A stretch of DNA of 64,000 bases, taken from the NCBI GenBank assembly GCA_029204225.1, contig CM055102.1, positions 13,761,658-13,825,657 of the forward strand. Reading direction: 5' to 3'. The first letter of the stretch is position 1. Each line of letters opens with the position of its first letter. Of the stretch, positions 1,301 through 55,400 are shown in pieces. The position numbers and the translations under genes are program-made. The notes beneath the pieces were generated by a model, which searched no databases, was not told the origin of the DNA, and saw nothing but the letters and a program-made list of their open reading frames with translations. This stretch comes from Diphasiastrum complanatum (Eukaryota; Streptophyta; Lycopodiopsida; Lycopodiales; Lycopodiaceae).

Positions 1301-1305
1301 AAAAC
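1301..1305. repeat. TRIM target-site duplication, left copy (right copy 1710-1714)
   Basis: AAAAC immediately precedes the left LTR and the same five bases immediately follow the right LTR. Five bases is the usual integrase stagger of plant copia-type elements. It confirms that the whole 404-bp unit moved by retrotransposition. Confidence 0.92.
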
Positions 1306-1449
1306 TGTTGGAATATCAATCCACACTCTAGAGAGAACTATCAAACAGGGCGGATAGCTCAGTGGTAGAGCATCCCATCCGATATGAGGGAGGTCCTGGG
1401 TTCGAATCCTAGTCTGTCCATCCATATTATGATTTATGGATTTCTAACA
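1306..1449 (+). repeat. TRIM 5' LTR (144 bp)
   Basis: Starts TGTTGGAATATC and ends TTTCTAACA. Apart from the tRNA-like core (1348-1420) it has only 42 bp upstream and 29 bp downstream, so half of the LTR is tRNA-like. Differences from the 3' LTR are G1362 versus A1622 and A1382 versus G1642; both fall inside the tRNA-like core. Confidence 0.92.
1348..1420 (+). tRNA. tRNA-like sequence inside TRIM 5' LTR
   Basis: Seventy-three bases fold like a tRNA. The seven-base acceptor stem GGGCGGA pairs with TCTGTCC with G-U wobbles, followed by discriminator A. There is a four-base D stem (GCTC/GAGC) and a five-base T stem (CTGGG/CCTAG) around the loop TTCGAAT. The pol III A box (TAGCTCAGTGG) and B box (GGTTCGAATCC) both match consensus. 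The anticodon arm is irregular: TCCC pairs with GGGA but leaves an enlarged loop, so no anticodon can be assigned. No T-run terminator follows within the LTR. I read it as a captured tRNA or pseudo-tRNA used as an internal promoter or structural module, not a decoding tRNA. Confidence 0.7.
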
Positions 1450-1462
1450 TGGTATCAGAGCC
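1450..1462 (+). promoter_or_regulatory. TRIM primer-binding site for initiator-Met tRNA
   Basis: TGGTATCAGAGCC directly abuts the 5' LTR. It is the standard complement to the 3' end of plant initiator methionine tRNA, from which minus-strand cDNA of copia-type elements is primed. Confidence 0.9.
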
Positions 1463-1565
1463 AATTCTGACCTAACAGTTCATGGTGTCAAAGCCATGGT
1501 TAGGTGGCCCAAGTTGTGGGGCAGGTGACAACTAGGACCCCAACCAAGTGTGGCTTGAGGGGGGG

Positions 1566-1709
1566 TGTTGGAATATCAATCCACACTCTAGAGAGAACTA
1601 TCAAACAGGGCGGATAGCTCAATGGTAGAGCATCCCATCCGGTATGAGGGAGGTCCTGGGTTCGAATCCTAGTCTGTCCATCCATATTATGATTTATGGA
1701 TTTCTAACA
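1566..1709 (+). repeat. TRIM 3' LTR (144 bp)
   Basis: Second copy of the 144-bp repeat, starting TGTTGGAATATC directly after the G-rich tract and ending TTTCTAACA before the AAAAC duplication. It contains the second tRNA-like copy at 1608-1680. Confidence 0.92.
1608..1680 (+). tRNA. tRNA-like sequence inside TRIM 3' LTR
   Basis: Second copy of the tRNA-like module, with one change in the D loop (A at 1622) and one in the anticodon loop (G at 1642). Acceptor, D and T stems and both internal promoter boxes are unchanged. Confidence 0.7.
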
Positions 1710-1714
1710 AAAAC

Positions 1715-3202: not shown

Positions 3203-4213
3203 CTAGTTCCAGGTAAAGATTTGAAGTGGCAGAAATCTCTTCTTGAGGAGAGATGAGATTCTTAGTGACAAAAGCATAATCATTATTGAAAAGATTATCC
3301 TCCTTTCCAAATTGTTGTTCCAACGTAATGATTGCGGTACTTGTATCGTTACCTTTCTCTTTTTACTTTGCAAGCCTCTTCCTACATTCTTTGATGTCAT
3401 GCCCAAACTTCTTGCAATAGTGGCACTTACCCTTCTTCTTGGAGCCTTGATCTTGAGCTTCCTTAGATTTTTGATCATCTTTGGAAGTTTTGAAAGAAGG
3501 CTTCCCTTTCCACTTGCCTTTGCCTTTGCCTTTGCCTTTTGCAAAGAAAGCTTGATCTTCTTGTTCCCCAAAGTTGATCCTTGTTTGCTCTTCTTGAAGA
3601 AGTAAGCCAACAAGTTCGTCGAAGGAGATTTGTTGTCCCCTAAGAGAAATGCCCAATGATGACACAAATGGAAGGTAAGAATTAGGAAGAGAGTTGAGAG
3701 TAATAGATACAAATTGTGAGTTCTCAATCACCTCATCAATACTAAGAAGCTCCTCTCGAAGATCCTTGATCTTCGTCAAGTGGTTTGTAAGCAAATCACC
3801 TTCTTGCATCTTCAAAATAGAAAGTTGATTTCGAAGATATACGACTTTTGTGGCATTCTTTACTTGAAACATCTTGGCAAGAGTCTCCCAAGCACTTTAG
3901 AAGTCTTGCATGATCTAATATGAGGAAGGATAGATCTCTTTACTGATAATGCAATGACGGAATGTGCTTGTGCATCTCATCGATCCCACTTTTTTTGCTC
4001 ATCGGAAGACACCTCCGTAGATGTTGAAGTAGTTGTTCTAGATGGTGTAATAGGTGCCAAGGTAGGCAGCCTCTCTTCGTCACCATTAACTACTTCCCAC
4101 AAACCTTTAGCAATTAGAAGGTTGTTTATCATGTAGCACCACAAGGAATAGTTTGTGCCATCCAGCCTATCTTCATTGAATAAAGAACCAATAGACTCTG
4201 ATTCTTTAGCCAT
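3203..4213 (-). pseudogene. Copia gag (UBN2-type capsid region and CCHC knuckle), broken
   Basis: Reading leftwards from the ATG at 4213, the product starts MAKESESIGSLF and continues RLDGTNYSLWCYMINN, the typical N-terminus of plant copia Gag. The frame is lost near 3977 and resumes at 3872 (MFQVKNATKVVYLRNQL...), giving the central capsid helices. A lysine-rich stretch (KGKGKGKGK) precedes one zinc knuckle, CHYCKKFGHDIKEC (CX2CX4HX4C), near 3373-3415. Protease, integrase, RT and RNase H are missing: the gene runs into the LINE relic at about 3200. It belongs with the LTR and primer site at 4824-5121. Confidence 0.85.
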
Positions 4214-4823
4214 AACAGAAAAATCAGCTTGTAGTAGATAGGAAATAGACTTTCCAAGACAAATCTACTCAAAGGGCCACAACCTCAAAGCTGAAATTAT
4301 GAGCACAATAGATTGCAATACTCTACATGCAATTTGCTCAACAAGTAATGAAATAGGTGGCTGATTTCTACACAAAAAACAGAATGCTCACAAATAGGTA
4401 GATTTCAAATGAGGCCTAAACCATAACCAGAAATTTGTGGCTAAAAAGAGTGCACACTATGTGTATATGAGCTGATGGTAGCGCCCTACTCCAAGCTCAC
4501 CAACGGGGAAATTTCAGCAAGAAATGTGTGTAAAACACATGTATCTTCATTTAAGAAGTAAATCTGAAATTACATCTGAAATTTTCAGCATGTAATTGAG
4601 TCAAGATCACATGCAATTGGTTTGAGCATGGGCGCCCTACTGCTAGCTCTCAAATAGGTGAAGGTGCCCTTCAATTTCCTGCAATTTCCTGTAAAAAAGT
4701 TATAAGAAGATGAAAACATTCTTCTCTTGCAAAAATCAGCATCTTGATGATTTTCTGCAACCAAGAAGGGAAGAAGATAGCTTCCTATTGGGCGCCCTCC
4801 TGCAAGCAATATGACCACCTAAA

Positions 4824-5121
4824 GGCTCTGATACCATGTAGGAAATAGAAGCCTAAGGATCCAGAATCTTAACTATTCAATCACACAAAGCATTCTCAAT
4901 AGAAACAGAGAGATGGCTAGAAACCCTCTTGTAGAAACTCGTGGAAGTCTACCAAGCATGGCCGAAATACGCCGCCTTGGCTAAGAGTCACAATTAGTCA
5001 CTAAGGAGAATAGTCAGTATTGCTTACAATAGTGTCTCATACAAATAAGATGCACACATATATATAGTCCAAGATGACTATCTAACTTCATGACTATTGG
5101 CTATCCAACTACTTGACTATT
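4824..5121 (-). mobile_element. Copia primer site (4824-4836) and 5' LTR, truncated by a LINE
   Basis: On the minus strand the sequence reads ...CCTACA then TGGTATCAGAGCC, an LTR end followed at once by the initiator-Met primer site. The LTR therefore extends rightwards from 4837. About 285 bp is visible before sequence matching the LINE family begins near 5122. The LTR start (TG on the minus strand) is not seen, presumably lost at the LINE junction. The 600 bp between the primer site and the gag start is the untranslated leader. Confidence 0.75.
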
Positions 5122-5581
5122 GGCTTACTTTTGATGGACAGGTTCTAGTGGTGGTCTCTTCTTATACATACCTGGGGATCCTTTTCTCGGGTCCTACTTT
5201 CAGTATGAGACAGGCTGCTGCCACTCAACTGGGGAAGGGACATGCCTCCCTTGTTCAGCTAGAGTGATTTTGCTTTTGGAAGTCCATCTAGGATGCTCGC
5301 AGTAAGTGTCGCCTCTTTGATACTATTGTCACTCCCACGGCTCTATATGCGGCCGAGGCATGGTGTACAGGTCTCCCCTCTTCACACTGGGCCAGTCTTT
5401 CACGATTACAAACCACCATGTTAGCTCGGTTGATTCGAGCGAAGCCTTCTATTCCACATAACATTCTTCTAGCCAAGTTTGTTGTTCCACCTATACAGAT
5501 CGAGGCAGCCCTTCAGCTCATTACCTATATTCAGAGGGTACAAACAAGCATTGCCAGAAATAGACAGACGATACATACAGA

Positions 5582-6170
5582 TTGCACTATCCTCGGACCT
5601 CTTCACATTATCTTCAAGATCAGGGCTATAGATTATCATGGTTCTCTCAAGCATCTCACCTCCTACTTGAGTCGTTTGGTATCTCCATTACAGAGCTTCC
5701 CCCAGAAACTCATCAGTATATCAGACGATTTCTCTATCGAGCATATCTGGAGCGGACTTGGAGTCGCGAGTTAGGGGTTAAGCCAGCTTTCTACCGTACC
5801 CATTTTTTGGAGCTAGATGCAGCAGGGATCCCAGTCCTGCCACGCTACTTGGACTCAGGACTATCACATTGCCTCAGATTCACACTGGAACAGCTCTGGG
5901 TGTCTTCTCACCAGCTAGCTATTGAGATTGGGAGGTTCCACGGTATTCCTAGAGAGGAGCGGATTTGCCAGTTATGCTCTCTAGGTGAGGTGGAGTCTGA
6001 GGAGCATTTCATCTTTAGATGCCCTATATACTACGAGATCAGAGGGAGATATCACTGTTTGTTTCAAAACATGCCTACCACTCTACGCTCTCTCATAGCC
6101 TATGAGGGTCCACGATGTGTCGCTCTCATGGTACGAGAGATGTTGATCTTGCGGCACAGACATAATATCA
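5582..6170 (+). pseudogene. LINE ORF2 C-terminal part with CX2CX9HX4C motif
   Basis: An uninterrupted frame covers the last third of ORF2. The LGVKPAFYRTHF and LDSGLSHCLRF blocks are followed by a zinc-binding-like motif with CQLC, nine residues, then HFIFRC (about 5967-6025). This resembles the zf-RVT motif at the C-terminus of plant LINE reverse transcriptases. The frame stays open for some 200 codons, better preserved than the same region of the long copy, where a stop replaces the Gln of CQLC. Confidence 0.75.
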
Positions 6171-13757: not shown

Positions 13758-15066
13758 TACCGAGTGCCCTTCTCTTCATCAGTCAATAACCTATTCACGC
13801 ATCCATGCCCCACATTTGCTTCGATCTTCCCGACGCTCCTACCATCGTGCTCTCTGCCGTAAGAAGCGTTCCTATGATGATTCTGAAGGGAAACGTCTCA
13901 TTGACCTTCTTTTCAGTTCTTCTTCGGGCGCTTTTTGGCGTGAGTTCATTCCTCACTCTCCACCACCTCTACTGGAGGACCTCCGCATTTAAATTGATTA
14001 TGCTACTAGCCTGTACATTGTCCCTACCGACTCACCTATCTCTATATCTCCATGACCATCTAAGTTCTCCTTCTTCACATCTGACATGGTACTTGCAGCC
14101 ATTAAGAAGATGAAGTTCCACAAGGCCAGAGATATTGAAGACCTTGAATCTGAACTCCTCTCCCATGCCTCTGACTTACTCACCCCCACCATAGCCACCC
14201 TTCTTTCCTTCGCAGTTGTCTCTAGTTTCCCGTCATCCTGGTGCACTAACATTATCCACCCCATCCATAAGAATGGTGACCCATGATTCCTAGTAACTAC
14301 CGCACCATCATGATTGGGCATGTCCTGGAGAGACTATACGGTACCACACTACAGTCTGTTGTGAGCTCAGAGGCGGAGACTAGGAGACTACATGCCATGG
14401 GTCAGGCTGGTTTTCGAGCCCATTATTCTACTGCAGATCACATCTTCACATTGCGAGCCTTGATTGAGGAGGCTAAGCACAGGAGAGAGAGGGTTTACTG
14501 TTGTTTTGTGGACTTTAGGAAAGCCTTTGATTCTGTTCCTCGCTCACTGCTCATCCAGAGACTTCGAGACCTCGACTTCTCCACCGACATCGTTCTTGTT
14601 GTGATAGCACTTTATGAGCGTGTCCTGGGTTGTTTCCGGCATAGTAGTGGCATATCTGATCACATTTGGAGCACCATTGGGGTGAAACAGGGTTGTTCCC
14701 TCTCACCAGTCCTCTTTGGCTTGTATATTGATGAGTTGGAGAGAGTCATTACACAGTGTGGTGTGGTGGTTCTGGCTGCAAGCTTGGAGACATCTTGATT
14801 GCTATCCTCCTTTATGCCGATGATGTGGTATTGGTCTCACCGACCAGAGAGGGCCTACAGCGACAGTTGGATTGCCTGCATGAGTTTTGCACCAGATGGG
14901 GCCTAGGGGTGAACATTGGAAAGACCAAGGTTATGGTCTTCAACACTTCACGGGCATTCATGCAGCGACATGAGCTTACTTTGGGTGGACAGGTTCTAGA
15001 GGTGGTCCCTTCCTATACATACCTGGGGGTCCTTTTCTCAGGTCCTACTTTTAGCATGAGACAGGC
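13738..15066 (+). pseudogene. LINE ORF2, linker and reverse transcriptase
   Basis: A linker (PPWYDTECPSLHQ to FWREFIPHSPP) leads to the RT. Visible blocks are MKFHKARDIEDLESELL (14,115), PSSWCTNIIHPIHKNGDP, a frameshift at about 14,283, NYRTIMIG, GQAGFRAHYST, CCFVDFRKAFDSVPR (motif A, Asp), VKQGCSLSPVLFGLYIDE (motif B), a second shift near 14,790, LLYADDVVLVS (motif C, catalytic Asp pair), GLGVNIGKTKVMVF (D) and YTYLGVLFS (E). A TGA at 15,077 follows QAATT. The catalytic residues survive but the frame is broken at least three times. The enzyme would prime cDNA at the endonuclease nick. Confidence 0.9.
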
Positions 15067-15960
15067 CGCTACCACTTGACTGGGGAAGGGACATGCCTCC
15101 CTTGTTCAGCTAGAGCGATTTTGCTACCGGAAGTCCATCTAGGACGCTCGCAGTAAGTGTCGCCTCTTTGATACCATTGTTACCCCCACGGCTTTATATG
15201 CGGCAGAGACATGGTGTACAGGTCTCCCCTCCTCACACTGGGCCAGTCTTTCACGATTACAAACCACCATGCTAGCTCGGTTGATTCGAGCGAAGCCTTC
15301 TGTTCCACATGAGATTCTGCTGGCCGAGTTTGCAGTTCCACCTATACAGATCGAGGCAACTCTTCAGCTCATCACCTACATACACCGGACACAGGCGTTA
15401 CCAGAGATAGGCAGGCGATACATACAGGTTCATTATCCTTCTCACAGCATCTTCATGATCAGGGCTACATGTTATCATGGTTCTCTCAGGCATCTCACCT
15501 CCTACTAGCGTCATTTGGCATCTCCATCACAGCGCTTCCCTCAGGCACCCATCAGTATATCAGACACTTCCTCTTTCGCACATATCTAGAGCGGACTTGG
15601 CGTAACCAGTTAGGGGTTAAGCCAGCTTTCTACCAGACTCATTTCTTGGATCTAGATGCATCAGGGACCCCGATCATGCCACGGTACTTGGATTCGGGAC
15701 TGTCACATTGCCTCATATTCACATTGGGGCAGCTTAGGGTGTCCTCTCATCAGCTAGCTATTGAGATTGGGAGATTCCATGGTATTCCCAGAGAGGAGCG
15801 GATTTGCTAGTTATGCTCTCTAGGTAAGGTGGAGTCTGAGGAGCACTTTATCTTTAGATGCCCATTATACTGCGAGATCAGAGAATGATATCATTGCCTG
15901 TTCCGAGACATGCCTACCACTCTACGCTCTCTCATAGCCTATGAGGAACCTCGGTGTGTC
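15067..15960 (+). pseudogene. LINE ORF2, post-RT region and Cys-His motif
   Basis: Continues with ARLIRAKPSVPHEI (15,270), AEFAVPPIQ, a frameshift, QASHLLLASFGISI, LGVKPAFYQTHF and LDSGLSHCLIF. It ends with the zinc-binding-like block in which TAG replaces the Gln codon of CQLC; HFIFRC follows. Sequence matches the truncated copy at 5122-6170 closely, showing that one family inserted at least twice. Confidence 0.85.
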
Positions 15961-33750: not shown

Positions 33751-34573
33751 TGTGAAAAGTTGTCAAAATCTATCTTGGTTATTTTATGATTTTATGTTTG
33801 TGAGTACATTTCACACGTGTGGAGCATGTTCCCATGTGTGTAAACTAGTTAAAATTAGTCTATAGTGTTGACTTTAGGGGTGTTATAAAGTTTTATGGTC
33901 AAGCATCTAAGTGTCACTAATCGATAGGGCCAATTTTGGCTTTAGAGGTCAAATAGTCAAAGTACACATGTTTGGCATAATTAGGCCAAAAGTCAATTGC
34001 AATTAACCTCGAGCTATTTGGTTGCTTACAAGTGTCCAAGTTATATTTGATGAGTGATCAAGTCAAAGTGTAAGTCAAGAGGTCCAATCATAAGTGAGAG
34101 ATTTGTTGGAAGGGGCCAATCAAAAGTAAGGGATGTTGCATCACTCATCCAATAGGATTAGAGAGGCTATGATTAAGGGGTCCAATAGGATTGAAGCATG
34201 GATCTCCACGAGTTCTATATGTACTCTTGTTTTCTATCATAATTTAATGTAAGTTTTTTAGTCAATTTGGAGATCTCTCAATTTTGTGTGTATTTCCTTC
34301 TCTCTCTACCAAAGAGCAAAATTGGCCTATTCTCTCTCTACCCAAGGTGAGGAGCTCATTTTGTCTTAGTTTTTTAATGAAGAGCTTCCACACGTGTGAA
34401 ACACTTTTGGTTATGAATGTCTGCATGTAGATTTGCCTCTTTGCCTTAGAACTTGACATTGATCTTGGTTTTCAATCAATAGTTGATCTGAAGTGCAAAA
34501 CCATTGCTTAGGAGATCAATTTTACATAGTAGGGCATTTTCACAGGTGTGAATTTTCACATGGTATCAGAGCC
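33751..34573 (+). mobile_element. Copia 5' LTR (33,751-34,560) and primer site (34,561-34,573)
   Basis: The 810-bp LTR begins TGTGAAAAGTTG and ends GAATTTTCACA, and is followed directly by TGGTATCAGAGCC. The LTR contains several copies of a CACACGTGTG or TTCACACGTGTGA-like palindrome (about 33,808, 34,390 and 34,545), perhaps regulatory. The gag gene downstream (35.3-36.2 kb) lies in the same orientation, so they form one element. Confidence 0.8.
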
Positions 34574-35310
34574 TACCTAAGCTTTTGATGCATCTATCAT
34601 CCATAGTTTCAAAATTTTCATGAAAATCAGGATCTAGAGAGTGTTGATTGCATCTCCCTTGATATCTTAGTGATTTTTCGATCAAGAGGGTTCATTATCA
34701 TATGGATCGGACCAGATCTGGTACTGTATGGAATTCAGTGCTCAAACACATGTGAAGGATAGCCAAATTCATTTGGGTGATTCTCTTCCAAGTTAGATCC
34801 AAATTTTGTGCTAGATAGCTTGTTTGAAAGCTAGATTGTCTAGTTTTTGTAGCCATTTGTTTCAATCCATTTCGTGGAGCCAATCAAAAGTTATAAGCTT
34901 TTGAAGAGGGTTATGGAAACTTTGTTTTGATCCATATCTTGATAGTTGGACCAAAAAATTCAAGAAGAGGCTTGCCAATCCCATCTATCTAGTCATCATT
35001 TTGAGGTCATAGCCACATTGTTTCTTACAATTTCATTGTATTAGAGAGATTTGTGAATTCTTTGAGTGTTTTACACGTGCCAAAGATAGTTTGACACAAA
35101 CTTTGCCTATAATCCATCAACTGATGAGAGGTTGATCTAGTTTGAGAGAGATTGGTAGAGCTAGTGAGATCCATATCACAATTTGTTGCAAGATCTTGCA
35201 TAGGAGTTGGTAGTACACCTTTCAAGGATCCTATATGAGAGAGAAACAACATTTATTGTCTCATTACAAGGAGTCTTCACTACTTTTGATGGCATCTATG
35301 GGTTCACCTA

Positions 35311-36260
35311 TTGGAATTTAGGGAAATATTATATACCTTCAACTATTCTATTTTAAAGTTTAGAATGGAGTCAATCTTGACACTCCAAGATGTGATGGAC
35401 ATTGTACTTGGGATTGAGGAGGAGCCTCAAGTTCTTCAAGAAGTACAAAAGCATAAGAAAAGAGCTAGGATGGCTCTCCATTATATCAAGGTGAATGTCT
35501 CTAATGAGATTTTGAGAGAGATTGGTGCTTGTACTTCAGCCAAGGATGTTTGGGATACTCTCAAAGCAATCTATGAGGCCAAAAATAACTCTAGGATCCT
35601 CACTCTTCGAAATCAAATATTTCAAAGTTGTCAAAAGAGTGATGAGAGTGCCACTAATTATGTTTTGAAAGTGAAAGACGTTCATACGGAGCTTGCTTGT
35701 ATTGGAGATTCCATCAAACAAAGTGAGCTAGTCCAAGTCATACTCAATGGCTTGAAGGATGAATATGAGAATCTTGTCCAATCATATGCTATCAAGGAGG
35801 AGCTACCAACCTTGGAGACTTTTCAAGGAGTGCTAATAGCTGATGAAGAATCAAGGCATGAGAACAAGCTATTAAGGATGGACAAATTGTCACTCAATCA
35901 TAATGGTGATGGCAAAGTTCTATTTGCCAAGCACAAAGAGAAGAGCAAAAAGCAACACCAACACTTTTCTAAGGACAAAGCAAAAGACCAAGATGAAGAG
36001 GAGGATGATTCCTCTTGAGATTCTACTTAAAATAAGAAGAAATAAGATGTTAAGTACTTCTTTTGTGGCAAGAAAGGCCACTATGCCACCAATTGCTTCA
36101 AGAAGAAAAACCAATTCAAGCAAGCCAACATCTCTCATGAAAAAGAAGACTTTATTGCAAGTGATGGAAAATGCTCACTTATGGCATCAAGCTTCTCCTC
36201 TTAAACCTTCAAGAAGGATGACTCTTGGTATATTGATAGTGGAGCATCATCTCATATGTG
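35311..36260 (+). pseudogene. Copia gag and start of protease
   Basis: The frame 35,311-36,018 (235 codons) contains KFRMESILTLQDVMDI, KVNVSNEILREIGAC, AKDVWDTLKAIYEAKN and LRNQIFQSCQKSDES. This is the UBN2-type capsid region of copia Gag. After a stop and shift come a knuckle-like KYFFCGKKGHYATNCF (36,052-36,100, first Cys replaced by Tyr) and the protease motif WYIDSGASSHM (36,226-36,258). Homology stops abruptly at about 36,260 and integrase, RT and RNase H are missing, so the element was truncated there. Confidence 0.85.
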
Positions 36261-45231: not shown

Positions 45232-45929
45232 AAGAATGGGTGACGTCTCAAATTTGATGGGTGATACAAGCAAGAATGTGACAAGAACGAGAAGCCAAAC
45301 GCATTGAACAAGATAGGAACATTCAATAGCATTCTTCTACTCTTATTATTTATTTTGCAATTGAAAAGATCAGTCTATAGAAGAGAAGAAAAAAAATCAG
45401 AAAACTGATGTTCTCTTCAATAGGTTCAGGTTCATTGTTTTTCATCTTGTATACTGTATATTTCATTTTCTTTTCTCCACTTCTTTTGACGTCTACTTTT
45501 CTATCACATCATCGATGACATCTTGAACTAGAGAAATAAAAAATTAAGTATTTATGAAAATATATTGGCGCATTAACAATCTGGTACGAGATATGCCTGA
45601 ACTTTAGAGATACAAAGAGTACCAGCACAGATGAGAACTGCCAATCAGGTAGCAATGCTTGTAAAGGAAACATCCCAGCATTTTCCTTTCATGTATGGAT
45701 AATGGCAGCAAAAGAAACAGAAAAAATACATCAAGCAGAGTACCAGGGACGAGCCTTTCGCATTTGTCGGTGAAATGATGATTGCAAAGAACAAAAATTT
45801 ACATCATGGCAGAAGTCACAAATCCATACAAAATTGCCATGTACAGGATCTCAACATAGAAACTTGGCCCTAGCGGCCACCTGGTAAGGAGCCGGCATAT
45901 GAGACTTGTGTGTAAAACTAGCCCAGCTT

Positions 45930-46430
45930 CTATTTCTGCATCCCATAGGATCCCGTTACGTTAAGGTGGTTATCCGATTTCACAAACAAAAAAGTGAGCC
46001 CATCTGATAGCTGCAAGCCTGCACCATAGCGCAGCCTCTTGTAAAAGCGTTTCTCAAACATTCCGTCCACTTCTTCATTGCTCAAATCCACCTTCAACTG
46101 CTTTGGGCCATCTTTGGCCTTAGCAAGCAGGTCAGCACCGAGGAGGACCTTCACTATCTGCTCACTAATATTGGGAACTTCAGCAGAAAGCCGAGCTGAG
46201 CTATACTTGACACTAAGCTTATACACCACCATCTGCCTGCTGATCTGCTTATGGATTGAACTCAGCATCTTCTTCACAGATTGTCCAAGCTCTTTTGATG
46301 ACAGGACCACATTGGCTGGCTTGTCGGACTGTAGCTGTAGCTGCCAAAGCTTTTTGTGCTGCTCCTCCTTCTGGGTCAGAACCTGGATGAGCTCCTTCAG
46401 CTCCTTCTCAGAGCTCCATTCATGCTGCAT
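45930..46430 (-). CDS. Unrecognised coiled-coil protein, paralogue of the 54.5-kb gene (5' truncated?)
   Basis: A single open frame of 166 codons, no stop. The N-terminal third is a charged coiled coil (EKELKELIQVLTQKEEQHKKLW). The central part has SSKELGQSVKKMLSSIHKQIS and EVPNISEQIVKVLLGADLLAKAKD. The C-terminus has KRFYKRLRYGAGLQL and DGLTFLFVKSDNHLNV. It aligns end to end with the gene at 54,499-55,059, roughly 70-75% identical by eye, but lacks that gene's first ~20 residues; upstream of 46,430 the two loci differ. The 3' flank (45,590-45,929) also matches. It may be a functional paralogue with an alternative start or a truncated copy. Function unknown. Confidence 0.7.
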   Translation of the reverse strand: MQHEWSSEKELKELIQVLTQKEEQHKKLWQLQLQSDKPANVVLSSKELGQSVKKMLSSIHKQISRQMVVYKLSVKYSSARLSAEVPNISEQIVKVLLGADLLAKAKDGPKQLKVDLSNEEVDGMFEKRFYKRLRYGAGLQLSDGLTFLFVKSDNHLNVTGSYGMQK

Positions 46431-46833: not shown

Positions 46834-47603
46834 TGATACCATTTTGCGTATTCACATAATCAAGAGATCAAGAGATTAAGAGATTGAAGATCAAGTGTGT
46901 GTAAAATAATAGCATCATCAGCTTATCAGAGATAGACGAAGTAGATGCCTTGCGCATTGATTCTTTATTTGTTAATAATAAATTCATTCCTATATAGATT
47001 GAATTAGCTTTGTAGAGCACGCGGTTTCGTCCGCTACTGTCTTGTGCTCTACTGCATTATTGACATATATATTTTGCTATACTTAATATGATAACAGCTC
47101 TTTTGTTCTGCGTTCAGATTTGTGTCAATATTGCTATGCTTATTTTTCATTCTGTCCAAATTTCTTGTTGCTCAATCTGGTAATCTGTTTTTAGCGAGTT
47201 ATTATTAGTCTAGTTGTTGACGACTAATATTTAGTCTTGCCTTTCGCGAATCATTCGACTGATTATCAGTCGAGCTCAATCTAGCTCTTCGCGAATCATT
47301 CGCGACAAATAATTTGTCTAGTTCTTTGCAACAAATTATTCTTCTGGTGTTTTTATTAATGTTTTGCTATGTAATCAGAACGATCATGATTTCCATCACT
47401 AACATTCTGTTCGTTTCTAATAGGCATAGTCATGCTTAGGGAAAGAGTAATATAGCTCATTCCACTGTGCACGAACACTTTCCATTCGAGTTCGTTTCTT
47501 GTTCGAGTTTCAAGTTCGCTTCTTTTTCGTTTTTGTTTTCTTTTCGAGCTATTTTCGTTTCTCACGTAGGACACACCCTCTTTCTCCAACATGGTATCAA
47601 AGC
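46834..47603 (+). mobile_element. Retrotransposon LTR (46,834-47,591) with primer site (47,592-47,603)
   Basis: A 758-bp repeat beginning TGATACCATTTTGCG and ending TTTCTCCAACA, followed directly by TGGTATCAAAGC, a one-base variant of the copia primer site. A closely similar 760-bp copy lies at 50,915-51,674. The LTR contains runs of TCGCGAATCATTCG-type short repeats. The element's own interior is not recognisable: an oppositely oriented copia pol occupies the space. Confidence 0.8.
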
Positions 47604-48422
47604 TATTTTTGTAGCCTGATAAGCTTCCACAGTACAAGACTCTACTAGCTGATAGAGGAATTGTCTTCTTGTTCTATAATTCTATACCAAATTTTTATAC
47701 TTAAGTCATTGATAGTTTTTCATATCACTTAGACTAATCTTTGTAAAAATTACATCAAATAAGGATCCGAAAACACTTGAAATGATGAGGGAAACAATAG
47801 ATTATGATCTCATAAGATTAGCACAAGTTGAACCATCAAACTCCATCAAAAATCTATGCTTGAACCTCACTAAATGGCCCAAATCCTTGAAGAAGGCTTC
47901 ACACATGTGAAAGTACGGCCTCCCACAGTCTGAGTACTGTACATCAGACCTACATTCAATCCTATAATCATTAGTAATCACAAAAACTCAAACAATCATG
48001 AATATAGAGAGCAATTGCACCATTATGAGAGAAAAATCATGAATTGCTTGATTGATTTTGGTGAGATATCATCACCTATATATACATGATCCATCACGGT
48101 TTTGGGCAGGTATGAGTAGCCCTAAACCTATCCCTAATGCTAATTTTGGTGGATCTTTCATCCCTACCAAGTTAGGGTTGGAGTCTTGGAGATCCCTCAA
48201 TAATGCAAAAATTACCAAAAATAGCTCCTATTTTTTCTCTCTTGTATCTAAGCATAATTTGGACTCATTCCAAAGGTTCTAACACTTAGGTCTACTTGAG
48301 AACATCCTTATGAATGGAAGCCTATGCTATTTGGCACATGTGACAAGCCACATCATGACCATCTAACTATTTACAAGTCATATGACCAAAACTAGTCAAG
48401 CTAGAATTGTGAATTTTTAACA
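47604..48422 (-). mobile_element. Interior remnant and 3' LTR of the minus-strand copia element
   Basis: On the minus strand a purine tract (AGTGAGGAGGAG, 48,423-48,437) follows the RNase H stop and is succeeded by TGTTAAAAATTC, the start of the 3' LTR at 48,422. The LTR extends leftwards; its other end was not fixed and may lie between 47,650 and 47,900. The left part is probably leader of the plus-strand element whose primer site is at 47,592. Confidence 0.6.
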
Positions 48423-48436
48423 CTCCTCCTCACTAT

Positions 48437-49222
48437 CTAGCTTAGTTCAATCATTGCTTTACTAATCACTCCAAGTGATGATCTGAACTTTATAAAAGGT
48501 GTCTTTTGAAGTGGTTTAGTAAGTAGATCAGCTACACATTCATTGCTTGGAACATGCTCCAAAGCAATCTCCTTGGCTTGCACCATTTCTCTCACAAAGT
48601 GATGGCATATCTCAATGTGCTTAGATCTTGCATGGAAGATTGGGTTAGATGCAAGGTGTTGGGCTGATATATTGTCATTGTAGATGATTGGTGCCTCCTC
48701 TGAATCCATGATCTTTAGCTCCATCAATAATCTCTTGATCCAGAGTACCTCCTTTGTAGTGGTTGTCAAAGCTTTGTACTCAGCCTCGGTTGAAGATAGA
48801 AATATAGTTTCTTGCTTTTTTGAACGCCATGAAACCACACCTTCTCCTATGAAAGTTGAATAGGCACTTCTTGATTTCCTATCCCTCTTGTCCCCTGCAA
48901 AATTTGAATCATTAAATGGATGAAGGTTAATCACATCTCCTCTATATAGAATCCCAAAATCCAATGTACCTGAGATGTATCTTAGAATTCTCTTAGCCTT
49001 TTTCCAATGGATATTCAATGGCTTTTGCATGGATTGGCTCAACCTACATACACTAAAGCTAAGATCTGGTCTAGTTATAGTGATCCACATTAAGGAATCT
49101 ATAAGTTGCCTAAACAAAGTGATGTCCATGAAGGATCTTTCATCATCTTCATTTGGCACTTTTACATCTTGCTCCATTGGTGTGTCAACACTTTTGCATA
49201 CTTCCATCTTAAACTTCTTCAA
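48437..49222 (-). pseudogene. Copia RNase H, open frame
   Basis: 261 codons without a stop. RT end: DTPMEQDVKVP, FRQLIDSLMWITITRPDLSF. RNase H: FNDSNFAGDKRDRKSRSAYSTF (first catalytic Asp region), VSWRSKKQETIFLSSTEAEYKAL (Glu), EVLWIKRLLMEL, YNDNISAQHLASNPIFHARSKHIE (Asp), VPSNECVADLLTKPL. Family motif DNQSA reads DNISA. Separated from the RT frame by indels around 49,225-49,290. Confidence 0.88.
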
Positions 49223-49287
49223 AAGACTTTGAGCATAGTTTACTTGACTTATAAAGATAAAATCAGACCCTCTAAGTACCTCTATGC

Positions 49288-50124
49288 CTAAGATGAAGTG
49301 AAGACACCTAGATCTACCATCTTGAACTCTAAAGATAGATCTATCTTGATTTTTTCAATACCATCAACACTATTTTCACTAATGATGGTGTCATCTACAT
49401 AAATGAGTAAAAGTACAATACCAACATCATCAAACTTAATGTAAAGAGTGGGATCATATTCACTTTGAACAAAAGAAAGTGAAATAAGATAGCAATGTAG
49501 TCTTGAATTCCAAGATCTCGAGGCTTGCTTCAAGCCATAGATGCTTCTTTGGAGATGGCATACTTTGTTCTCCATTCCATGCTTAATGAACCCTTGTGGC
49601 TGCTCCATATAGATATCCTCTTCCAAAAAACCATTCAAGAAAGCATTAGAGACATCCATTTGATATAGGATCCATCCAAAATGTGATGCAAGTGCAATGA
49701 TTAGCCTTATTGTGACCATCTTGGCCAGGGGTGCAAAAGTTTCCTCATAGTCTATCCCTCTCTCTTGAGCATAACCTTTTGCAACTAATCTTGCTTTATG
49801 TTTGTTAACAATCCCATTTGCATTCAGCTTAAGCTTGAAGACCCACTTGCATCCTATTACATTCCTTTGAGGTCTCTCAACAAGCAACCAAGTTTCATTC
49901 TTAATCAAGGCATCATACTCATCCAACATAGCTTTATACCATTCTTTGGAGTTCAATGCATCTTCAACATTAGATGGTTCTTCAAAACTAGATAAAGCAT
50001 AAGAAGTGAATGAGATACCCTCAACTTGTTGTCCTTTGCCTTGATATGTGAGCCTTGATGGCTCCACTTTTGCCCTTGAAGATCTCCTTGGTGTGATAGG
50101 TGGGTTTGGTGCTTGCTCCTCCAT
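49288..50124 (-). pseudogene. Copia reverse transcriptase, open frame
   Basis: 278 codons. A linker with TPRRSSRAKVEPSRL leads to the RT proper: ALNSKEWYKAMLDEYDAL, ETWLLVERP, CKWVFKLKLNANG, KARLVAKGYAQERGIDYEETF, LYQMDVSNAFLNG (motif A Asp), YMEQPQGF, CHLQRSIYGLKQASR and LLLIYVDDTIIS (YVDD). The frame is lost just after MVDLG. The coding region is well preserved apart from this shift and the junctions either side. Confidence 0.9.
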
Positions 50125-50148
50125 GAGCTCCTCCTCAAAACCAAGATC

Positions 50149-50914
50149 TTACTCCTCGGCCATCTTCTTCTTGATTGTTGGAGCACTTGAGCCTTCTTCA
50201 AGCATATGCATATGATGTTCATCAAAGATAACATCCCTTGAAACAACAAATTTGTTCAAGGATGGGAGATAGACTTTGTAGCCCTTGCTTGAGCTTGCAT
50301 ATCCAAGCATGATCCCTCTTGTGGAAGATGGATCCTCCTTGGTAAAGGTAGATATCTTGCTCTTCTCGGCCAACGTGACAACATTAGTATCCACAAATGC
50401 ATCCAACTTATAAAGTTTGCCAAGTCTAGTGCCATTAGCCACGATCTTACCCTTCTTCTTGATGAAACATTCATTTGAAGCAAAGTCAACATTGAAACCA
50501 TTGTTTACCATTTGGCCAACACTTAGTAGATTCTTTGTTATTGTAGGAATGTACAAAACACCTTCTATGTTGATCTTTTTGGAAGATACTATGCAAAGGG
50601 GAATGCTACCAACTCCTTCAATCTTACAAGCTTCATCATTTGCTGTATAGATAGACTTTATAGGTCCATCATAAGATAAGAGAGAAGAGAAAAACTCCCT
50701 TTTGCTAGTCATGTGTCAACTAGCACCCGAGTCAATCCACCAAGGATCTTCTCCTTTGAAGCTTGTTGAAAAAAATATGGACATCATGAGAGAGTCCTTA
50801 TGTGAACTCTCCTCCTCCTCCTCTTTGCTCATGTTGGCTTGGCTTTGATCTTGCTTCCTCTTGAAGCATTCCGAGGCATAATGCCCCATCTTGCTACAAT
50901 AGTAGCACTTCAAT
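50149..50914 (-). pseudogene. Copia gag end, protease and integrase remnants lacking the integrase core
   Basis: Starts at the zinc knuckle CYYCSKMGHYASECF (CX2CX4HX4C), then the protease motif WWIDSGAS. A TGA (50,713) stands in place of one codon before HMTSKREFF. The following frame (50,712-50,149) covers the protease domain (GVLYIPTITKNLLSVGQM) and NVVTLAEKSK. It then jumps without a stop to STRGIMLGYASSSKGYKV and SRDVIFDEHH, sequence normally found after the integrase catalytic core. The HHCC and DDE region of about 250 residues is therefore missing in frame. Gag upstream of the knuckle is replaced by the LTR at 50,915. Confidence 0.85.
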
Positions 50915-51674
50915 TGAATACCATTTTTCGTATTCACATAATCAAGAGATCAAGAGATTAAGAGCTTGAAGATCAAGTGTGTGTAAAATGATAGCATTAG
51001 AAGCTTATCAGAGGTAGACGAAGTAGATGCCTTTGCGCATTGATTCTTTATTTGTCAGTAATAGGTTCATTCTTTTACAAATTGAATTAGCTTTGTAGAG
51101 CACGCGGTTTCTCTACTATTGTCTTGTGCTCTACCGCATTATTGACATGTATATTTTGCTATAATCTGATAACAGCTCTTTTGTTCTGCATTCAGATTTT
51201 GTCAATATTGCTATGCTTATTTTTCATTCTGTCTGACTTTCTTGTTGCTCAAAGTACTGGTAATCTGTTTTTAGCGAGTTATTATTAGTCTAGTTGTTGA
51301 TGACTAATATTTAGTCTTGCCTTTTACGAATCATTCGTGACTGATTATCAGTCGAACTCAGTCTAGCTCTTCGCGAATCATTCGCAACAAATAATTTGTC
51401 AAGCTGTTCGCGACAAATTATTCTTTTGGTGTTTTTATTAATGTTTGGCTACGTAATTAGAACGACCGTGATTTTCATCACTAACATTCTATTTGTTTTT
51501 TTATAGGCGTAGTCATGCTTAGGGAAAGAGTAATATAGCTCATTCCGCTGCGCACGAACACTTTTCGTTCGAGTTCGTTTCTCGTTCGAGTTTCGAGTTC
51601 ATTTCTTTTCCATGTTCATTTTCTTTTTGAGCTATTTTCGTTTTTCACGCACAACACACCCTCTTTCTCCAACA
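50915..51674 (+). mobile_element. Second LTR of the same family
   Basis: 760 bp, beginning TGAATACCATTTTTCG and ending TTTCTCCAACA, then GTTAC. It aligns with 46,834-47,591 with many scattered substitutions. It abuts, without spacer, the zinc knuckle of the minus-strand copia gag at 50,914. Flanks of the two LTRs share no clear 5-bp duplication, so they may not be the two ends of one undisturbed insertion. Confidence 0.75.
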
Positions 51675-54498: not shown

Positions 54499-55059
54499 AT
54501 GGACAAATTGAGAGCCAAGCGTGTCCGGCCCTGGGATAGCTGCGACGATGTTCAGGAGCTGAGGCGGATGCTCTCTGAGAAGGATGAGGAGCTTGTCCAG
54601 GTTCTGATCGAGAAGGAGGAGCAGCACAAAAAGCTTCGGCAGGTACAGCTACTCTCCGACAATCCAGCCGGGGCCGCCAGTTCAACGCTGTCATCAAAGG
54701 AGCTTGAGCAATCCGTGAAGAAGATGCTGAGCTTAATCCAGAAGCAGATCAACAGCCAGATGGTGTATCAGCCCAGCCTCAAGCATGGCTCAGCTCAGCT
54801 TACTGCCGAAGTTCCCAATATCAGTGAGGAGATGGTGAAATGCATCCTCGGTGCTGACCTTCTTGCCAAGGCCAAAGAGGCGCCAAAGCAATTGAAGGTG
54901 GATGCGAGCAATGAAGAATTGGAAGGCATATTTGGTAAACGCTTCTACAAGAGGTTGCGCTTTGGTGCAGACTTGCAGCTATCAGATGGGCTCACTTTCC
55001 TGTTTGTGAAGGCGGACAACCACCTCAACGTAACGGGATCCTATGCGATGCAGAAATAG
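54499..55059 (+). CDS. Unrecognised coiled-coil protein, intact 186-codon single-exon gene
   Basis: Start chosen at ATG 54,499 (MDKLRAKRVRPWDSC); the same frame is open back to an ATG at 54,436, but that part lies in the duplicated leader. Residues about 15-50 are a charged heptad coiled coil (VQELRRMLSEKDEELVQVL, IEKEEQHKKLRQ). The middle has SSKELEQSVKKMLSLIQKQI and EVPNISEEMVKCILGADLLAKAKE. The C-terminal ~45 residues (KRFYKRLRFGADLQL, DGLTFLFVKADNHLNV, ending YAMQK) are the best conserved with the paralogue at 45,930-46,430. GC-rich codon use contrasts with the surrounding repeats and there are no stops. No signal peptide or membrane segment. I do not recognise the family; a soluble or cytoskeletal/nuclear role is only a guess. 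Confidence 0.8.
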   Translation: MDKLRAKRVRPWDSCDDVQELRRMLSEKDEELVQVLIEKEEQHKKLRQVQLLSDNPAGAASSTLSSKELEQSVKKMLSLIQKQINSQMVYQPSLKHGSAQLTAEVPNISEEMVKCILGADLLAKAKEAPKQLKVDASNEELEGIFGKRFYKRLRFGADLQLSDGLTFLFVKADNHLNVTGSYAMQK

Positions 55060-55400
55060 AACTTGGGCTAGTTTTCCAAAAGCCTCATATGCCTGCTCCT
55101 TCCAAGGGTTGCACATTAGTTTCCGCGTTGAGATCTTGCACAGGATAGCCCTTCACCTGGGCGTTAATATGGCAGTTTACTGTATAGATTTCTGTCTTTC
55201 TCCCACGATGTAAAGTCTTGTTCTTTGCAATCATCGTTTCCCCGAAAAAAACTAATATATGCTCGTTCTTGGCACTGCTTGATGTACTTTTTCTGTTTCT
55301 TTGGCAACATCCATGAAAGGCAAATGGTGGGATCTTTCCTTTCCGAGCATTGGTATTTGATCGGCAGTTCTCATCTGTGCTGATACTCTTTTATTTCTAA
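55060..55400 (+). other. 3' flank shared with the 45.6-45.9-kb locus (inverted duplication)
   Basis: GGGCTAGTTTT, CTCATATGCC, GGCTCCTT-like, TTGAGATC, GATGTAAA.TCTTGTTCTTTGCAATCATC and CAGTTCTCATCTGTGCTG recur in the same order on the minus strand of 45,590-45,929. The duplication therefore included genomic 3' sequence (3' UTR and beyond). TATAGATT-like and AATAAT signals are present, but no single poly-A site can be chosen. Confidence 0.8.

Follow-up and report, generated by a model that had tools for sequence, protein, structure and literature searches.

A family of TRIM retrotransposons with a tRNA-like module in its LTRs, and its hybrids with Copia elements, in the clubmoss Diphasiastrum complanatum

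TRIM retrotransposons whose LTRs carry a stretch resembling a gene of RNA polymerase III (pol III) are already known, and the closest of them to the element considered here is Helenus, a name given by Kojima 2024 (PMC10886601) to TRIMs whose LTRs contain tRNA-derived sequence and which that text describes from fungi, animals and a single plant; the only plant in Table 1 of that paper is Selaginella moellendorffii, whose Helenus-1_SMo has an LTR of 120, an internal stretch of 85 and 5-bp duplications. Like the clubmoss TRIM, Helenus is presented there as having an A/B-box module in both LTRs, an adjoining primer site and a polypurine tract, 5-bp duplications (in plants and fungi), a module that is mostly no working tRNA and, in one fish family, tandem arrays such as the clubmoss TRIM also forms. 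For fungi, Kojima argues for Copia helpers on the strength of primer sites and of one internal region held in common, and leaves the pol III promoter activity of Helenus open; the main text describes no direct Copia hybrids, and “chimer” and “template switch” occur in it 0 times (PMC10886601). Cassandra resembles the clubmoss TRIM in its tandem arrays and in the pol III gene within its LTRs, and it differs in carrying 5S rRNA sequence, for which there is no match in the 64-kb window. According to Kojima, Cassandra has no known helper (PMC10886601), and its search pattern, as given in the text of PMC7215508, includes the same primer-site sequence as ours, TGGTATCAGAGC. The LTRs of Ajax, another TRIM, likewise include a pol III promoter stretch; Ajax differs in being 5S-derived and in occurring in two nemerteans (PMC10886601, as described in its text). 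The word “tRNA” has 0 occurrences in the main text of PMC4717578.

How does the clubmoss locus compare? It lies at 1301–1714 of what we call the window, the whole stretch of 64,000 nucleotides that was analyzed (C11:13761658-13825657 of the Diphasiastrum complanatum genome; 1.745 Gb, 5176 contigs, searched genome-wide), and it is a TRIM of 404 bp—LTR 144, internal 116—that is too short to encode the proteins for its own movement (Table 1). Protein matches agree with this host: one Copia frame of the window is 96% identical to a Diphasiastrum complanatum protein, and a frame with a lectin domain is 98% identical. The anatomy proposed in an earlier, sequence-only reading (a TRIM retrotransposon with 144-bp LTRs, an initiator-Met primer site adjoining them, a polypurine tract and a perfect AAAAC duplication) was borne out in each of these parts. 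The primer site, which stands at the start of the internal stretch as GAGGGGGGG stands at its end, is that for initiator tRNA-Met. The two LTRs differ at LTR positions 57 and 77, each time by a transition, and no further copies of the TRIM were seen within the 64-kb window. An A/B-box pol III promoter is also found in tRNA-derived SINEs. SINEs lack LTRs, a primer site and a duplication fixed at 5 bp, and they end in a LINE-type tail; we rejected a tRNA-derived SINE on account of the two LTRs, the primer site, the purine tract and the TG...CA ends. The internal stretch also has, at 1470–1504 and inside a predicted hairpin, another motif that resembles a primer site but is decayed (TGGTGTCAAAGC at 1483). 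The real primer site of a second family, described below, aligns with it, as one would expect had the internal part grown longer.

Table 1. Features of the TRIM, and of a decayed Copia element, in the window
Feature	Position	Strand	Remarks
Target-site duplication AAAAC, left	1301–1305	+	
5' LTR, TG...CA, 144 bp	1306–1449	+	
CAA triplet, putative pol III start region	1342–1344	+	4–6 nt upstream of module; 3' LTR: 1602–1604
tRNA-like module, 5' LTR, 73 nt	1348–1420	+	ARAGORN Ile-GAT
A box TAGCTCAGTGG	1355–1365	+	3' LTR counterpart 1615–1625, TAGCTCAATGG
B box GGTTCGAATCC	1399–1409	+	3' LTR counterpart 1659–1669
7-bp hairpin then TTT in U5	1420–1441	+	possible weak terminator
Primer-binding site TGGTATCAGAGC, initiator tRNA-Met	1450–1461	+	0 nt spacer from 5' LTR
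Polypurine tract GAGGGGGGG	1557–1565	+	
3' LTR, 144 bp	1566–1709	+	2 transitions vs 5' LTR
tRNA-like module, 3' LTR, 73 nt	1608–1680	+	ARAGORN Thr-GGT
Target-site duplication AAAAC, right	1710–1714	+	
Decayed Copia element	3258–5126	-	gag ORF 3366–3896, primer site 4825–4836, LTR part 4837–5126

The features of Helenus found in the window TRIM are the short two-LTR plan, the tRNA sequence in the LTR, the A and B boxes, the primer site, the polypurine tract and the 5-bp duplication. The parallel with Cassandra that the sequence-only reading had drawn holds good, in that a pol III module sits in the LTRs of a TRIM. Its suggestion that such a layout might be undescribed has to be given up, because Helenus (Kojima 2024, PMC10886601), as its text describes it, has the same layout; a match to a described family is there for the kind of element and not for this family, Selaginella moellendorffii being the only plant in that Table 1. 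LTR and internal lengths are 144/116 for the window family and mostly ~153/73 for the second, against 120/85 for Helenus-1_SMo (PMC10886601). A search for later work turned up no further paper on such elements, and both clubmoss families appear undescribed in the open-access literature searched; the kind has been known since 2024, and the families and the host lineage are apparently new.

Within the LTRs, both tRNA-like modules exceed the cut-off of 29 bits against Rfam RF00005, the one in the 5' LTR at 50.0 and the one in the 3' LTR at 49.8 (E 1e-7, reckoned over the 64-kb window), and they are the only ARAGORN genes and the only gathering-level Rfam matches in the 64-kb window. When A-box patterns (based on the consensus, which is also quoted in the text of Kojima 2024, PMC10886601) were combined with the B box GGTTCGANTCC at 25–70 nt on both strands of the window, pairs occurred only in the two TRIM LTRs, at 44 nt in both. 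The boxes had been called perfect, which is right for the B boxes and the 5' A box and wrong for the A box of the 3' LTR, with its single G-to-A change. The window TRIM contains no T4 run, so its RNA would run through both LTRs; this lack is non-significant, 1184 of 2000 shuffles and 120 of 574 T-matched 404-mers also being without T4. The first T4 downstream of the 3' LTR comes at 1891, so that a transcript from 1342 would be ~550 nt. The hairpin with its TTT tail, a feature picked after the fact, recurs in 25 of 3548 144-mers of the window on both strands. An unusual RNA fold energy was considered and rejected as ordinary (z -0.68), as was priming of reverse transcription by the module itself, whose end the primer site mismatches.

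The genome search that had been called for revealed a large family. The LTR start (first 28 bases, at most 3 mismatches) occurs 909 + 916 = 1825 times genome-wide and the B-box/acceptor 21-mer (at most 1 mismatch) 725 + 747 = 1472 times, and reversed control patterns for both occur 0 times. Among the 1312 candidates for the whole element, 40 were scored; 40 of the 49 matches listed span 1–404 at 98–100%, and the rest are 7 overlapping or adjoining tandem units at 94–97% and 2 short ones. As a sample blind to the module, we used every exact LTR start listed on contig C1, 80 in all. The module sits where it should across 65 or more of its 73 bases in 66 of them; the A-box pattern is exact in 70, the strict B box GGTTCGANTCC is present in 39, and TTTT is present in 7. 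The 14 without the module in place are truncated, carry deletions or are hybrids, and one duplicated hybrid accounts for three of them; members lacking the tRNA-like core, which the sequence-only reading had named beforehand as what would count against it, come down to these damaged or hybrid copies. The module is a constitutive part of the LTRs of the window TRIM family. All 26 matches to a gap pattern {10,39} look like the window family with deletions, and we rejected them as further families.

We put at roughly 0.75 the probability that the window TRIM belongs, as a complete copy, to a large family of Helenus type in which the module acts as a pol III promoter, Copia elements do the packaging and hybrids arise through reverse transcription. 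Pol III would be recruited by the A and B boxes of the 5' LTR and would start near the CAA, ~37 bp into the LTR; its RNA would read through both LTRs, end in the flank and be packaged in particles of Copia elements using the same primer site. If the known course of LTR retrotransposition applies, initiator tRNA-Met would then prime the first strand, the minus strand would jump between LTRs, the polypurine tract would prime the second strand and integrase would insert the DNA with a 5-bp duplication. The two RNAs would sometimes recombine during reverse transcription and so yield the TRIM/Copia hybrids, whose structures are seen. The module would be retained as a promoter, not as a tRNA. Pol III transcription of the TRIM we infer from its promoter signals, and the hybrid copies point to larger Copia retrotransposons as what probably moves it. 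The primer site TGGTATCAGAGC is common in plant elements, so that sharing it with Copia says little about a helper.

The most useful new evidence is the TRIM/Copia hybrids, joined at the common primer site or at short microhomologies, with partner domains assigned by Pfam. L109 (which we read, together with L036, L107 and L108, as a single event) passes from Copia gag to TRIM sequence, from internal position 74 to LTR position 98, and then to Copia pol, with GGTGACA and TTC at the joins common to both partners. We rejected L036 as an amplified hybrid: of its three loci (only three genome-wide for the second join), two are identical over 8.8 kb and the third, which diverges upstream of the gag start, is 99.65–99.9% identical over ~8.5 kb, and since this near-identity reaches well past the Copia body, we take all three to go back to a single event that was later copied along with its surroundings. 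L034 runs from Copia, up to integrase, through a join with a common ACAT into TRIM primer site, internal stretch and LTR and then into a 306-bp stretch with TATAAAT, which has a second copy 0.7 kb further along and which we take for a Copia LTR. L084 has a stretch matching L109 downstream of pol (read as an LTR), then TRIM internal stretch and LTR, then a primer site, with gag further on; L054 has an LTR end like window 4837–5126, then TRIM internal stretch and LTR 1–130, then a Copia integrase region. The partners in L109, L034, L084 and L054 are one Copia clade, at 85–98% over overlapping parts of gag and pol, with the LTR stretch of L084 at 75–82% to the same clade. The decayed Copia element of the window (Pfam Retrotran_gag_2; 77% to the gag of hybrid L036, its LTR end 77% to L054) is, by sequence, a diverged relative of this clade, its outer limits being approximate; it lies on the minus strand, which is why hybrid matches to the window are antisense.

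Other hybrids involve other partners. L035 leads from a TRIM LTR through the primer site into a copia-type gag frame; we rejected it as a Copia element with two tRNA-bearing LTRs, since no second TRIM LTR occurs in the 8.4 kb downstream, which makes it a one-sided join. L032 consists of an LTR (with a copy 3 kb on), TRIM internal stretch and LTR, and a further leader with its own primer site; the body that goes with this leader is 71% similar to stretches next to the window Copia gag at 35290–36015 and has a weak, sub-threshold Pfam pol match only. L079 holds TRIM pieces in both orientations and a leader 84% like an L032 stretch ~350 bp before a copia-type gag frame; L083 has LTR 82–144 followed by a foreign primer site; and L063 and L033 have a foreign LTR-like end, for which no partner was found. 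In L079 and L080, TRIM LTR pieces are inverted, each then followed by a similar foreign primer-site leader.

Could such joins have been made in the DNA, by recombination or repair after insertion and not by template switching, in which case they would say nothing of a helper? We regard this as rather unlikely. Common 12-nt primer sites and microhomology guide DNA repair as well, and C1 holds near-identical duplicated regions. Against it stands orientation, which is readable in six hybrids (L033, L063, L079 and L083 could not be judged): the partner is in sense to the TRIM in L032, L034, L054, L084 and L109, with both strands searched, and in L035 by its gag frame. The joins, moreover, lie at the primer site itself or within Copia coding sequence, without normal TRIM ends, and complex LTR elements of plants have been described as arising by template switching (PMC1950507). 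Flanks match the main Copia clade in 4 of 10 hybrids and, as a control, in 3 of 33 full copies (two of them one duplicated locus, all sense), a contrast that is descriptive because the hybrid list was drawn up after the joins had been seen. Sense-oriented joins at the primer site and at microhomologies suggest that TRIM RNA may be co-packaged with Copia RNA. The fuller proposition, that pol III transcripts of the TRIM are co-packaged and reverse-transcribed with particular Copia clades and that the primer site is an exchange point at which LTRs, promoters and bodies are shuffled, we offer tentatively, at a little under even odds. In the six stretches read as Copia LTRs, a TATAWAW box is present in five and a B box or tRNA call in none. 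The hybrids thereby supply candidates for the Copia clades that help a tRNA-module TRIM, and the question of a helper can now be put to the test.

A second, diverged TRIM of the same plan adjoins an array on C3 (L111 1231–1579, minus strand; C3:4648600-4650500). Its LTR is 150 bp in the L111 copy and 153 in 9 of 14 others, its internal stretch is 73 bp and its primer site is the same; a 32-mer from it occurs 254 + 295 = 549 times genome-wide (control 0), and one copy, L119, has a GTTAG duplication. Across 14 LTRs in 8 loci, the A box is kept in 13 and a GGTTCRANNCC B box in 10 (a stricter B-box regex finds 0 of 14), and TTTT is present in 11. Foreign sequence adjoins copies of this family too: L121 comes after a stretch that resembles the Copia LTR end at window 34520–34560, and one L118 LTR is followed by a foreign primer-site leader.

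It is against these two families that one must set the idea of an ordinary pol II TRIM whose tRNA-like stretch is a passenger from a tRNA-derived SINE. Insertion of a SINE into an LTR is indeed the origin that Kojima proposes (PMC10886601, in its text), and yet several observations make mere passage improbable. No TATAWAW or AATAAA was found in the window TRIM LTRs; the two diverged families keep module and A box, at 47–59 of 73 positions identical to the window LTR in the module and 34–40 of 71 outside it; and the CAA start motif stands at the same place in 72 of the 80 C1 LTRs with an exact LTR start. Functional CAA motifs are reported at most 10 nt upstream of plant tRNA genes (PMC11700998, in its text). 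With only two families compared, the module could also have been kept by chance after common descent.

Much less probable still is that the modules are working tRNA genes, for threonine or another amino acid, spread by the element. ARAGORN does call a tRNA in 59 of the 80 C1 LTRs, 45 of them Thr-GGT (and tRNA gene predictions in this host are for that reason likely inflated); the Rfam scores reach 50 bits, and the second-family copy in L111 is called tRNA-Ser GGA at 50.3 bits, so that the tRNA shape of that family is not always broken. Working tRNAs have U at position 33. Of 58 loops parsed from C1 LTRs, 42 show the common loop word, in which the base at that position, just before the anticodon, is C, as it also is in the window module. 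The anticodon arm is irregular there, a small correction to the tRNA stems of the sequence-only reading, so that we find no convincing working tRNA. The 14 second-family LTRs yield 8 ARAGORN calls, all with an unassigned two-letter anticodon and 0 with a full one, and Kojima found that the majority of Helenus modules probably do not function as tRNAs (PMC10886601, in its text). A and B boxes kept beside a mostly defective anticodon arm are what promoter function predicts, and this pattern favors a pol III promoter over a working tRNA. As for the idea that a tRNA-derived sequence landed just once, by chance, in one TRIM copy, which the lone copy in the window might by itself have suggested, it is refuted by the genome-wide counts of a module present throughout the family and can hardly be credited at all.

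The insertions on C1, taken as loci from either pattern (we left out clusters that touched the end of a locus or lay no more than 60 bp from one already counted, and treated pieces separated by over 80 bp as distinct insertions), number 69 distinct ones: 33 LTR-INT-LTR, 5 LTR alone and the rest partial, tandem or hybrid. One of the 5 LTR-alone loci has a perfect duplication, and L035 and the duplicate pair L064/L065 are included among them. The 33 full copies have target-site duplications that are perfect over 5 bp in 16, with one mismatch in 10 and with two or more in 7; at 1/1024 per copy, 16 of 33 would have a chance of ~8e-40, some of the loci being mutual duplicates. Their LTR-LTR distance has a median of 0.049 and a minimum K of 0.014 with 0 identical pairs, which gives no sign of current activity. 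Several C1 loci are near-identical mutual duplicates (97.9–99.9%), so that counts overstate independent events. Near-identical duplicated regions on C1, some inverted (e.g., at 12.43, 59.49 and 60.83 Mb and at 82.23 and 82.83 Mb), reflect either recent segmental duplication or an assembly artefact.

Tandem arrays of up to 5 LTRs within a single duplication also occur. In L009, one TAATA duplication encloses 5 LTRs and 4 internal stretches, the outer LTRs showing no difference across 140 aligned bases and the third LTR being identical to both; L114 has 5 LTRs within GAAAC, L005 and L110 (same flanks) 3 within GTCTG, and L022 3 within GTTAC, the middle one without most of the module. L057 lies within a GAATC and L113 within an ATTAG duplication, and no flanking duplication was seen for the arrays L089 and L112. 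Such arrays fit the reverse transcription of read-through RNAs as a unit; they could also have come from unequal exchange after insertion.

Outside the host, a B-box-to-primer-site pattern gave 0 matches in a viral contig set and 1 in a genome contig set, a Clostridiales match that we read as chance (an ARAGORN tRNA-Arg precedes the motif), and the exact module 3' end gave 0 matches in the viral contig set. With Diphasiastrum, the lycophyte orders that have tRNA-module TRIMs become two, Lycopodiales joining Selaginellales, with two families of 1825 and 549 pattern matches in the one host.

The window holds other repeats as well. At 46836–51674, some 4083 bp separate LTR-like repeats; a motif resembling a primer site (47592) is on the plus strand there, and the Copia ORFs between the repeats are on the minus strand. 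Two copies of another repeat, at 5123–5897 and 14974–15736 (91% and 83% in two blocks), are probably LINE pieces; the latter comes directly after a reverse transcriptase frame at 14280–14795. Finally, 45911–46228 and 54761–55078 are the arms of a 318-nt inverted repeat, 86% complementary and 8.5 kb apart.
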